Shown in pieces: positions 21,592 through 60,848 of a DNA stretch of 64,000 bases. The stretch spans positions 1 through 64,000 of the forward strand of contig SWBL01000256.1 of NCBI GenBank assembly GCA_024195585.1, read 5' to 3'. The position numbers and the translations under genes are program-made. The notes beneath the pieces are model-generated. The model was not told the DNA's origin and ran no database searches. It worked only from the letters and a program-made list of their open reading frames with translations. Every line of letters starts with the position of its first letter. Position 1 is the stretch's first letter. This DNA comes from Aureobasidium sp. EXF-3400 (lineage: Eukaryota > Ascomycota > Dothideomycetes > Dothideales > Saccotheciaceae).

Positions 21592-21628
21592 GGTTGTATA
21601 GTGTAGCGGTTAGCACGCGAGATTTTGA

Positions 21629-21642
21629 TTACTCATCAAATC
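21629..21642 (+). other. Canonical tRNA intron (14 nt)
   Basis: Lies between positions 37 and 38 of the tRNA. CAAA (21637-21640) is complementary to 21624-21627 (TTTG), giving the anticodon-intron pairing needed by the tRNA splicing endonuclease. Confidence 0.75.
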
Positions 21643-21653
21643 TTCTCGAGTCC

Positions 21654-21708
21654 GTAAGTTCGAACCTCAGCTTCGTCAACATCTGAACATCATTCTAACA
21701 TATTCCAG
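21654..21708 (+). other. 55-nt spliceosomal-intron-like insertion inside the tRNA gene
   Basis: Starts GTAAGT, holds TTCTAAC (CTAAC at 21695-21699) 10 nt before the end and stops in TTCCAG: exactly the donor, branch and acceptor seen in the protein-gene introns of this window, with typical length. It sits between the variable arm (AGTC) and T stem; removal joins C21653 to TGGG and yields a perfect 5-bp T stem. Its first 24 nt resemble the tRNA's own 3' end. Confidence 0.55.
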
Positions 21709-21732
21709 TGGGTTCGAGCCCCAGTACGACCT

Positions 21733-22786
21733 GAAACAACCAGGCAACTGCCTCTCTTTTTGCTTTTCCTTTGTCTGTCAAATATCTGCAAGAATAAATT
21801 GCGTCGACTGCCCTTGTATACCTTTTGCGGCTCTTTCGTGCAAGCAAACGACCTTGAGTCGCCTGTTTCTCTGGTCGGAAGTCACCTCTCCCTTCGAATG
21901 TTGACGCGCCTCACAGGAGCATGGGTGCTTTCAACCGCGTTCTTGTCGCTCCGGAGATTTGACTTGGAAGCGCGACCGAAGAGTTCATCATTCCATGTCG
22001 TGTTCGTAAGCTGTGCGAGCAGACGAGAATAGGACTTGAGCGACACGCCAACCAACATTCGGTGAAGCCATCCTACCGCGTACCTCTGGTCGGAGCTCAC
22101 AAAGACTTTTGAACAATCCTGCAATATCTTTCGCACTGGTTCTGGACCCGAATATGATATCGGACCCTCGCTGCTATGATTGCGCGTTCGTCTACCTTTT
22201 TGTGAGCGCGAGACGCGAGACCAGCGCAATACCGATGGGCCAATCAGCAAAGTACCTTTTCGCGTCATAAAGATACAAAAGACTGTGCGGTAAGCAATCA
22301 GGGACGACTTTCTGACAAAAATATCTCGTGGATTGCGTCCTCCATAATGCTACAGCCGCGGTCAGGCTGCAGGTTCTTGCTTACTTGTACCTCTGGCACC
22401 AATCCACATCCAGTCGGTGAATCGCCAAATTGTCCGATCTGACTTGTCAGACATGGGAGATATAAACCAGGATGATTTCCGTCGATGATGACCTGAGCAG
22501 CAACAGCCAAGTCGGACTCTGACAGATGTACATCAAGGTCAACCTGTACTGGACGACTAGGCAAAGAGCTAAGTAAAGAGTATGGTGAAGCTTGCACCCA
22601 TCAGCCGCGATGCCGCGACATCATTCTCCGTGTTGAACAGTAAGAGCGACGGCATTTACATTTGCGATTCCGAGTCGCTCCTTCCATGCTATATCTTTCA
22701 TATTTCCTCTTTCTTGGATCAATCGAACAACACAAAGACCATTGTCGTTTCACTCAGTCGATCTATACCAGTAACCAACAATCAAA
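21733..22786. other. Intergenic region after the tRNA
   Basis: 1.05 kb down to the NTF2-like gene. A 128-codon minus-strand frame (21882-22268) and others are without family signal. No repeat found. Confidence 0.45.
21757..21761 (+). terminator. RNA polymerase III terminator (T5)
   Basis: Run of five T 24 nt after the last tRNA base, the normal stop signal for Pol III. Confidence 0.65.
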
Positions 22787-56549: not shown

Positions 56550-57534
56550 TCACAACTTGCCCTCACGTCTCAGGCCCTCGTACATTGCCAGAGCAGCCAA
56601 CGCCTTACTGTCTCGGCCTCCCTCACGGAACAGATTGTCCAACTTCACTACCTTCAAAGTGATCTTCTCGCCGTGATCGCGCAGTCCTGTCAGCTTGCCC
56701 TGCCAATCCTTGAGCTGTTTGCGTGGAATACGCTGCTGATGCAAGAAGACGGGCACGAATTCGTCGCATCCACCAGCACTGGGATACATTGCCTTTTGCA
56801 ACTTCTCTCCATCCTGAGTCTCGTCTTCAGTACCGAAAGTAAGCTTTGTTAGATCAATGAGTTCGTCCTCCTTGATCTTCAGACCCGTTTCCTCTTCAAT
56901 CTCTTTGGCAGCTCCGCCTGAAAAGGTACCTGCATCGTCCAACATACCTGCAGGAAGCTCCGAGAAGCACAGAGATCCAGCAGGTATACGGGGTTGTACA
57001 GTCAAAAGAACATGCTTGTCTTTCTCAGAGCCCTCCTCGACGTCATCCGGTTGTAGAATAAGCTGTGAAACCTGTCAACAAAATGTCGTGTCTTTCGTAC
57101 CTTTATGCTGTGCAACTTACCAACATAGCAACACTGCCTCCTCTCAGGAACACAGAGCCAGGAAACTTTTCTCCATCGTCGTTTGACACTTCTGCCTTGA
57201 GCTTGATAAAACCAATTCGTTCTCCACCGAAGAAGTCGACGCTTTGGATATCGATCTTTCTTAGTTTGTAGGGTGTTTCGTGGAATGTGTGATCCTTTGA
57301 TTCTTGTCGCTTGAGCGAATGCTGGAGGGTTTCTGACCATGTTTTGAAGGCTGGGAAGGACAGCAGTTGTTCTTTTGTGAGGTCGTTTGTTAGGTGGACT
57401 GGGCACTCGGGCGAGAAGCCAGGCAGTGTGAATGTGCTCATGACTCTGGTGTTGAAGTTGTGTCTTGCAGGTAGGTTACTCAGTTGTCGAGCAAGTTTGG
57501 GGTATATAGTCGAAAGAGCAGATCTGAAGAGCAT
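56550..57534 (-). CDS. NUDIX hydrolase, NUDT14/ADP-sugar diphosphatase-like
   Basis: Cleaves nucleoside-diphosphate sugars (ADP-ribose, UDP-glucose class). Exons 57534-57121 and 57071-56550 (49-nt intron) give 311 aa. The NUDIX box is present in the NUDT14 variant: ELPAGMLDDAG ... AAKEIEEETGLKI, with Lys for the usual Arg and Gly for the first Glu, as in human NUDT14. The N-terminal about 30 residues (MLFRSALSTIYPKLARQL) are basic and amphipathic and look like a mitochondrial presequence; an internal Met (MSTFTLPGF, 57441) would make a cytosolic form. The metal-binding Glu pair of EEETG is kept. Exact substrate is inferred only. Confidence 0.88.
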
Positions 57535-58058: not shown

Positions 58059-60848
58059 CTAGAAAGCACCACTCATCTCAGAAAGTGCGAGCTTCATCCT
58101 CTGAGGGTTCATCTTCTCAAATCGGTCAACCGTCATGACAAAAGTACCCCTTCCTTGAGTCAAACTGCGCAGATGCTTCAAGTATCCTACCATCTCCTTG
58201 AGAGGCACTCTCGCCACAATCTGGCGTGTCTGATTTCCTACACTGACAGATTCTGCGCCGATACTCGACGCCGAGCCACCGAATGGATCAGGTGGTGAGT
58301 AGATTCTGGTCGGATCGATCTCCATATCGTCTTCCGAGGCACCTGTTTCATCGTCGGCACCGAGAGATACGACTTGTCCTCCTCTGGCAGAACTGATGTC
58401 GTGAACGACACCTCCAAGACTAGGTTCGTCTACTGTGATTGTGACGTTCATGACGGGCTCCATTAATGCTGTGCCGGATCCGACATCCGCTGCCTCACGC
58501 AGAGCGTTCTGCACTGCAAGACGAGCAGCTGAAGAGATGGCAGGAGCATTGGTGGTTTGGAAGAGATGTTCGGAGGGGTCGAAGGTAACGGTGATTTGTG
58601 TTGAATGAAGAGGGTAGCCGTGTGAGGGACCGCGCGCGAGGGCTGCTGTGACACCTGTCTGCATGGCTGATTGGAGCATTTGCATTGGTAGGGTGGAGGG
58701 TAGAGGGGGTAGTTCAGATTCGGTTGCAGAGCCATCTGGATAGAGGGTAGGAGTCTTGAGAACCAGATAGTTGTTATCCAGCAAGGCGAATACATGCGTA
58801 TGATCGTCGGCTGAGTCCAGCTGCGATTCCTCGAACGGCGTCACACTCGCAGTACATCCAGCCTTAGATGCCTTGCCAGCCACTTCTCTGTCGAACACTG
58901 CAGATACATCGGAAGAGGGAGCAGAGAGAGCTTCGCGATAGCCAATCTGGATATTGCCAATCCTGGCCTTCGCTTTGAGGTCGTTGATGAGCCTGTCACG
59001 AGCAATCTCCAGATGAAGTTCACCCATACCAGCCAAGTGAGTCTGTCCACTTTCGGGATCCTCTCTCACGTTCAAGCTGGGATCTTCTCGGAGTAACAGC
59101 GCCAGAGTCTCAGAGATGTGCTTCTCCTCAGCCAAGCTGTTCGGCTCTACACTTGTGAAGAAGACAGGCGGAGGAACAGTGATCGGCCTTAGCTGCAGAG
59201 TGTTTATCGGCGAGGGAGGACCGACCTTTGGGTTTACTCCGCTGTACAGAATCAGTGTATCGCCTGTGCGTGTAGATTTCAACCCGGGGATGACTCCAAT
59301 TTGACCTGCCTCAATGGAGGAGATCTCGACAGCTTCATCAGCATACATTCTCAACAGGCGAGGAGCCTTCTCGGTGATGCCAAGGTTGGTGTTGAAGAGG
59401 GGAGCGTTCTTGGTGATCGACCCCGAGTATACTCGAACGTAAACCAGAACACCTCGACGAGGATCAGTGACGACCTTGAATGCCAGAGCACAGGCTTCAA
59501 GACTCTTGATGATGGACATATTCTTGCTCGCAGCCAACGCTTTGGTCTTCTGTTGCTTCTTGGCCTCAATCGTTGCCGGCAAAGCACTCTTGCCCGAGAG
59601 GAGATCGTTCAACCCGTATTTGGAAGGACCAACACTGGCTTCAGGATCCGGTCGCTCCTGTGGTGAAGGAAGAAGGTCCACGACCGCGTCCAATAGCGGC
59701 TGGACACCAACATTTCGGAAGCTTGCACCTGAAAACACAGGTACAAGCTTTTGTGGTTGCTGTAGAGTACACATTCTTAGGCTCTCTGTGATATCGACAG
59801 AAGGGATGGCCAGATGATCTTCATCATGCTCAAGGAACTTCTCAACCATCTCATCGTCATGTTCACTCAAAAGTTCGACCAATGCTATTCTTGCTTTCTT
59901 GATCTCTTCTGCGAAAGCGGAGTTGTCGGCTTCCAGATCCTTGAGAGAATGCACTTTGAGGGTCTTGCCGTCACCACCTTCCTCGTACAGCAAACCACGA
60001 AGACCTACAGCATCACCAACGCCTTGAAGCTTGAGATCACCAGGACGCCACCATGGAATCTGACATAGCGCAGGCCAGACACGTAGGCGTGTGCCTATCT
60101 CTGATATGGTTCTCGCAAAGGCGGCGCCCTCACGATCAAGCTTGTTGACAAACAAAATCTTCGGAATCTGGTACTGCGTTGCTTGAGTCCAGACTTTTTC
60201 AGTCTGCGCCTCGACACCAGCGACACCATCGAGGATACAAACAGCACCGTCCAGAATACGCAATGATCGAAGCACCTCGAAAGTGAAATCGGCGTGGCCA
60301 GGTGTATCTATTAAATTGATGTTGTGACTTTGAGTGGAGCGTGGCAAGACAATCTTGTCCGACGAGAGATTGGTAGCTGACGAAGCAGCTGGTGGCCAGG
60401 AAAAGGTGACGGCTGCTGATTGAATGGTGATACCTCTGGCACGCTCGGCAGGCAGAAAGTCTGTCACGGTCGAGCCTTCGTCGACATCTGAGAGATACTC
60501 AGCACACGAGTTGCGACAAGACAAAGGCAAAGAGTAATCAAGGAAAAATGACAGAAAAGTAGAATGCAGGTACTAACCTCCTAATCTACGAGTGAAGCCA
60601 CTGTAATAGAGCATACGCTCCGTGGTTGTAGTTTTGCCCTTTTCACGACTCAGTACCTACTTTTTGAAGAAGTATATATCGCGACATACCGCATCAATGT
60701 GGGCTATAATGCCAATATTACGAGTCTTTGATGTAGCTAGATCGTTGCGACGGGGTGTGGAAGAGGCAAAAGATCTAGCAGTTATGGATGCAAGAGACTT
60801 AGCATTGTGATGGAGACGGCGACATGGCCATTGTGGTCTGAGCAGCAT
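58059..60848 (-). CDS. MEF2: Mitochondrial elongation factor G2 (ribosome-releasing factor 2)
   Basis: GTPase that works with the recycling factor RRF to split mitochondrial ribosomes after termination. Exons 60848-60690, 60638-60578 and 60487-58059 give 882 aa. Exon 1 carries a basic presequence ([20 protein letters not shown]) and the start of the G domain; the P-loop [13 protein letters not shown] is split by intron 1 exactly between Ala and Gly-Lys. G2: [16 protein letters not shown]3: [16 protein letters not shown]4: [10 protein letters not shown]. Domains II-V follow ([17 protein letters not shown] in domain [12 protein letters not shown] near the end). [15 protein letters not shown] is the MEF2 rather than MEF1 (EF-G1) form. 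Divergent from VPS17, 234 bp apart. Confidence 0.93.

Follow-up and report, generated by a model that had tools for sequence, protein, structure and literature searches.

Introns of mRNAs are cut out by the spliceosome and those of tRNAs by a protein endonuclease. In eukaryotes, canonical tRNA introns follow position 37 and are removed by this endonuclease together with a ligase. Several introns per tRNA gene, also outside the anticodon loop, are found in archaea and algae (Cyanidioschyzon and others), where they are taken to be of the bulge-helix-bulge (BHB), endonuclease type. Spliceosomal introns occur in ascomycete rDNA, and the U6 snRNA genes of fission yeast and other fungi carry GU-AG introns with a CTAAC branch site; U6 intron insertions in fungi are reportedly the subject of one earlier paper. 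Portions of PMC8917221 and PMC10484740 describe fission-yeast U6 as a Pol III transcript spliced by the spliceosome, and in the latter its intron is thought to derive from reverse splicing.

The tRNA-Gln(UUG) gene described here lies in the window, the whole 64,000-nucleotide stretch of DNA that was analysed. It carries a canonical intron in the anticodon loop and, in addition, a 55-nt insert that differs from such introns in interrupting the T stem, in displaying mRNA splice signals and in lacking a BHB. In having more than one intron, one of them outside the anticodon loop, the gene resembles its archaeal and algal counterparts, but the signals of the additional intron are spliceosomal. With ascomycete rDNA it shares an mRNA-type intron in a structural RNA gene, the product being a tRNA and not a Pol I rRNA. 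Like the fungal U6 genes, it combines GU-AG ends and a CTAAC branch site with predicted Pol III transcription; unlike them, it has a product that would enter translation rather than splicing, a B box of its own in the third exon, and a second, tRNA-type intron. As far as our searches of the open-licence PMC literature go, mRNA-type introns in Pol III genes are already known and the tRNA host is new: no title or abstract on a spliceosomal intron in a tRNA gene was found in the open-licence full text, subscription literature lying outside this scope. The string "spliceosom" occurs nowhere in the accessible parts of PMC4090602 and PMC8450103 and once, in regard to protein genes, in those of PMC3978253.

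Anatomy and folding of the window gene

The gene (contig C256, locus L009) occupies positions 21592–21732 of the plus strand and spans 141 nt as read from the sequence. Exon 1 (21592–21628) encodes the 5′ strand of the acceptor, the D arm, the 5′ strand of the anticodon stem and the anticodon loop up to A37, and contains the A-box region. It is followed by the canonical, endonuclease-type intron of 14 nt (21629–21642), which ARAGORN reports as i(38,14) once the second insert is removed. Exon 2 (21643–21653) supplies base 38, the 3′ strand of the anticodon stem, the variable loop and the first T-stem base, a C. The mRNA-type insert (21654–21708) opens with a GTAAGT 5′ splice-site motif (21654–21659), overlapped by a B-box- or T-arm-like stretch, GTTCGAACCTCAG (21658–21670), that resembles the 5′ part of the U6 introns of this genome; it continues to a CTAAC branch-site motif (21695–21699), whose predicted branch A at 21698 is 10 nt from the 3′ end of the insert, and closes with CAG. 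Exon 3 (21709–21732) provides the remainder of the T arm, with the B box at about 21711–21721, the 3′ strand of the acceptor and the discriminator T. The coordinates of the gene and of the insert, which had been assigned from the letters alone, proved right when the sequence was re-read. A T5 run at 21757–21761 is the likely Pol III terminator.

The insert had been called indistinguishable from the mRNA introns of the window, which is a fair description: similar signals are found in a candidate intron of the form GTAAGTTC...CTAAC...CAG between two open reading frames of the window's ABC-transporter gene, and the branch A is 10–12 nt from the 3′ end in 41 of 77 background candidates. The latter were collected by a regular expression over 62 sequences (314,636 bases, some overlapping) and, being unannotated, comprise true introns as well as chance matches. 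The exon bases at the 5′ splice site of the insert are TCC, which is not the usual mRNA exon sequence at this position.

With the insert in place, no tRNA is recognized. ARAGORN in its bacterial setting found none in the whole window as it stands, and none in the 141-nt gene with its flanks when introns were allowed. Once 21654–21708 is taken out, the program returns a tRNA-Gln(ttg) whose 14-nt intron sits in the normal place in the anticodon loop, and the cloverleaf of the spliced form (−23.1 kcal/mol) comes close to the minimum free energy of −23.5 kcal/mol. The observation of a T arm broken by the insert and restored by its removal is confirmed. The same behavior extends to all insert-bearing genes of the genome described below, none of the five being detected unspliced and all five giving a full cloverleaf with a UUG anticodon after removal of the insert; the tRNA introns assigned by ARAGORN across the six UUG genes measure 11–16 nt.

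Rfam at its cut-offs found nothing in the window, and its tRNA model had no match at E ≤ 1 in the locus of the window gene, whereas the only insert-less copy, C106, scored 54.1 bits. With the insert treated as a gap, two of the five interrupted genes exceed the cut-off of 29 bits (C180, 33.9; C534, 31.1) and C182 (24.8) and C201 (24.3) fall below it; the window gene is unlisted. This is a tRNA gene family missed by ARAGORN and caught only in part by the Rfam tRNA model. The genome-wide RF00005 list scored 63 of 1936 candidates and is not a tRNA census. The best match and one other of the 63 lie on contig C432, on which a 3-kb locus (L001) contains seven ARAGORN tRNAs in AT-rich surroundings and looks like mitochondrial DNA.

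Six UUG genes in a genome with two subgenomes

The assembly comprises 53.4 Mb in 717 contigs. A mitochondrial elongation factor G2-like gene of the window (58059–60530, minus strand) encodes a protein 93% identical to one from Aureobasidium pullulans, the best among the 120 matches listed, and has a second copy elsewhere in the assembly (95%). According to the available part of PMC11905612, diploid strains of A. melanogenum have genomes of about 50 Mb and haploids of less than 30 Mb. We take the source to be a black yeast of the genus Aureobasidium whose duplicated genome consists of two diverged subgenomes.

When the genome was queried at the DNA level with the window gene, nine matches came back: the gene itself, four further insert-bearing genes, a single insert-less gene and three tRNA-Gln(CUG) genes, all three of them intronless. 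A search with the exon 1 pattern gave six tRNA-Gln(UUG) genes, on contigs C256, C534, C201, C106, C182 and C180, which flanking DNA arranges into the homeologous pairs C256/C534 (L009/L010, 77% identity over 787 bp and 67% over 740 bp), C201/C106 (L011/L014, 82% over 1185 bp and 81% over 1024 bp) and C182/C180 (L012/L013, 75% over 2452 bp). There are probably three UUG genes per subgenome, judging by these flanks. Five of the six, with representatives in all three pairs, carry an insert of 51–56 nt at the same position, and comparison of the six bears out the double interruption by a tRNA intron and an mRNA-type intron. The suggested count of other intact UUG genes came to one, C106 (L014 1515–1602), all the remaining genes being interrupted. 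C106 keeps a 16-nt tRNA intron and lacks exactly the insert of its homeolog C201; its exon junction is the splice junction predicted for the insert-bearing genes, which makes it a natural empty site. C201 and C106 form a natural pair for the loss (or gain) of a spliceosomal intron, with the tRNA intron present in both.

The inserts are 55 (C256), 53 (C534), 56 (C201), 53 (C182) and 51 nt (C180) long. All begin with GTAAGTT; the hexamer GTAAGT, present in all five as expected of a U2-type 5′ splice site, starts 30% of the 77 background candidates in exactly this form. CTAAC with its A 10 nt from the end is likewise found in all five (10–12 nt in 41 of the 77 background candidates), and the 3′ end reads CAG in three and TAG in two, with a junction that matches C106. 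Across the five inserts, 13/13 splice-signal columns are invariant vs 6/43 others (Fisher p of about 1.4e-8, for signal columns picked from the mRNA consensus and for rows that share ancestry). The interiors, in turn, have strongly diverged, four of ten pairs being similar at a shuffle p < 0.01 and the homeologous introns of C182 and C180 being dissimilar by this measure (p = 0.46); the common origin of the inserts thus rests mainly on their shared position and signals. As four further genes carry the insert at the same position with the same splice signals, chance is excluded. TTTT is absent from all seven tRNA and U6 introns and present in 26% of the 77 background candidates, which is not a significant difference (p = 0.12), and lack of Pol III stop runs was rejected as a sign of constraint.

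The exons tell a different story from the intron interiors. C256 and C534 agree at 72/72 exon positions vs 22/37 aligned columns of the intron interior, and C182 and C180 at 69/72 vs 19/38. Exon 1 of the window gene is the same in C534, C182 and C106 and differs at one position in C201 and two in C180; exon 3 is the same in all six. With the insert removed, the products of C256, C534 and C182 are identical to the 72-nt tRNA of C106 (72/72). The product of C201 has G28A together with C42T, a compensated stem pair in which G28-C42 becomes A-U, and C180 has the same A-U pair plus C16T in the D loop. A T run of at least five, as befits a Pol III terminator, starts 13–25 nt downstream of all six genes. 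The run forms part of a TTTTTGC motif that follows every UUG gene and a single CUG gene, whereas the remaining two CUG genes have TTTTGC; the motif is kept in downstream DNA that has otherwise diverged.

Probable splicing of the insert and rival explanations

Considering (i) the anatomy of the inserts, (ii) the position common to five genes, (iii) the exact presence and absence between homeologs, (iv) the same or compensated product, and (v) the selective conservation of the signals, the insert is very probably a true spliceosomal intron of the U2 type, hosted by a nuclear tRNA gene and excised from a Pol III pre-tRNA that contains two introns. The mRNA-splicing machinery would then probably have to act on this tRNA before the tRNA works. 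In the sequence of events that we propose, Pol III would make the doubly interrupted pre-tRNA, and the nuclear spliceosome would take out the GU-AG intron and so rebuild the T stem and the stack of the T arm on the acceptor; the ends would then be processed and the tRNA exported, and the tRNA endonuclease and ligase would remove the anticodon-loop intron. RNase P, RNase Z, the export receptor and the tRNA endonuclease recognize the folded tRNA body. Since the insert breaks the T stem on which this fold depends, the spliceosome should act first.

Several observations count against this interpretation: the exon bases TCC at the 5′ splice site depart from those usual in mRNAs; the intron interiors have diverged so far that few pairs are still similar; C106 is intact, so that the interrupted genes could in principle be dispensable; the insert enlarges the distance between the A and B boxes; and two of the five interrupted genes, when their insert is treated as a gap, score above the cut-off of the Rfam tRNA model. 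An intact C106 would also suit the notion that accidental insertion turned the other genes into decaying pseudogenes and that C106 alone supplies tRNA-Gln(UUG), as would the broken T stem and the failure of ARAGORN to find the five genes. We consider this quite unlikely, given that the splice signals are kept in all five genes, that the insert has the same position in genes from all three homeologous pairs, and that the exons are the same or compensated (plus one D-loop base in C180 only) in the midst of diverged flanks and intron interiors. Decay of the locus had been named by the sequence-only reading as the outcome that would speak against it; what is found contradicts decay, the mature sequence being the same (72/72) in four of the six genes and compensated in the other two, with the one further D-loop base in C180.

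The likeness of GTTCGAACCTCAG in the window insert to GTTCGAGCCCCAG in exon 3, 54 nt away, could be taken for the degenerate remains of a tandem duplication, rather than an intron, in which the tRNA gene copied its T arm and 3′ end. This likeness is largely a peculiarity of the window gene, the other four inserts having GTTTCAGCC, GTTTCACTC, GTTCGACCT and GTTACAGGC there with the splice signals kept, and a duplication leaves GTAAGT, CTAAC and AG in all five genes unexplained. Such an event is highly improbable as an account of the inserts, is disfavored by the other four, and could survive only as a distant origin of the intron sequence. A second endonuclease-type intron at a non-canonical position would have precedents in Crenarchaeota or some algae, multiple non-canonical tRNA introns being known in such lineages from part of PMC4090602. 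Here, a BHB requires a 4-bp helix between two 3-nt bulges, formed by exon positions −6 to −3 and intron positions −6 to −3. The full helix is present in none of the five genes (two of the four pairs form in C256, C534, C201 and C180, and three in C182), all of which have mRNA signals instead; we find a BHB intron barely conceivable and rejected it.

The putative spliceosomal intron is probably old in the UUG family and was precisely lost from C106, although C106 could represent the ancestral state without the intron. The retention of the tRNA intron in C106 would fit loss through a nuclear RNA copy that was half spliced. Under any phasing of the contigs, all UUG genes found that belong to the C201 subgenome bear the intron. 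CAA accounts for 38 of the 95 Gln codons in four open reading frames of the window, and under wobble rules this codon should not be read by a CUG anticodon. From these points we infer that the parent species that contributed the C201 subgenome should have relied on removal of the insert, assuming a complete assembly and no gene loss after hybridization. As an intact C106 exists, the hybrid of today does not strictly need the spliceosome for this tRNA.

Searches of the genome for other tRNA introns just before the T arm gave 21 matches with a first pattern (36 in the backward control) and 23 with a second (53 in the control); in each case five were the Gln genes, and the others were judged by the matched text alone, with their introns left in. 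Of 20 matches to 5S rRNA, 13 are full-length (120 bases) and intronless and seven are shorter or cut by contig ends. The collections of viral and of bacterial and archaeal contigs, from which records near the window genome may be absent, contained no relatives.

U6 introns and the possible origin of the insert

Two genes of the genome match the Rfam U6 model, at 53.5 and 48.8 bits, and both are interrupted after GGATG by an mRNA-type intron, GTGAGTTCGA...CTAAC...CAG, of 56 nt (C230 57311–57366, plus strand, equal to L039 1571–1626) and 54 nt (C246 43932–43985, minus strand). The precedent invoked at the outset, that fungal U6 genes can carry mRNA-type introns, is thereby met with in this very genome, besides fission yeast (parts of PMC8917221 and PMC10484740). 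The Rfam matches extend into the introns and miss the true 3′ exons. Both introns have a B-box-like stretch at the 5′ end (GTTCGATCC, GTTCGAACC). A 17-nt sequence, GTTCGATCCCCAGCATG, is common to the C230 intron (L039 1575–1591) and to the T arm and acceptor of a tRNA-Val(CAC); it is found at C156 73939 (plus strand, ARAGORN tRNA-Val(CAC)), C10 56467 (minus) and C101 56873 (minus), and the B box of the U6 intron may have come from a tRNA. About 150 bp upstream of the C230 gene, an inverted partial copy of the 3′ exon of U6 and of the DNA that follows it (57020–57092, minus strand; 73 bp, 90% identity) begins at the second base of the exon.

Four sites in 53 Mb match the pattern GTRAGTTCGANNC...CTAAC...AG (two in the backward control), namely both U6 introns, the window tRNA intron and a place on contig C1 that resembles the 3′ end of a tRNA gene. 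The interior of the window intron is 73% identical to that of the C230 U6 intron, with an alignment score reached by none of 200,000 shuffles and none of the 77 background introns; when the first seven interior bases, which belong to the B box, are left out, two of 50,000 shuffles and again none of the 77 attain it. The window intron is nearer to the U6 introns than to the intron of C534, its homeologous gene (p = 0.04). The remaining four tRNA introns resemble the two U6 introns slightly or not at all (shuffle p of 0.02–0.86). Such a pattern is consistent with the decay of a B box that is superfluous in a tRNA, but it also makes the claim of kinship weaker.

The inserts of the tRNA genes are possibly kin of the U6 intron. 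It is conceivable, and we propose it tentatively and with somewhat more doubt than conviction, that the introns of U6 and tRNA-Gln(UUG) go back to a single intron with a B box, which was copied from one Pol III gene to another and spread or was inherited within the UUG family. In at least one parent species, every UUG gene would thus have needed the spliceosome as well as the tRNA endonuclease. Nuclear reverse splicing may serve as an example of the route, because U6 and its own pre-RNA meet at the spliceosome.

For one tRNA, both splicing machineries seem to be needed. If this is true, a tRNA precursor made by Pol III can be a substrate of the spliceosome, and the decoding of CAA would be coupled to splicing capacity. 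Should the U6 and tRNA introns have one origin in the way proposed above, translation of CAA codons in at least one parent would have depended directly on the spliceosome. With C201 and C106, the genome offers a natural pair, with and without the intron at the same locus, for studying intron loss or gain, and the likeness of the window intron to U6 offers a test of the reverse-splicing origin of the U6 intron. As ARAGORN misses all five interrupted genes and the Rfam tRNA model puts three of them below its cut-off, more such genes may hide in fungal genomes.
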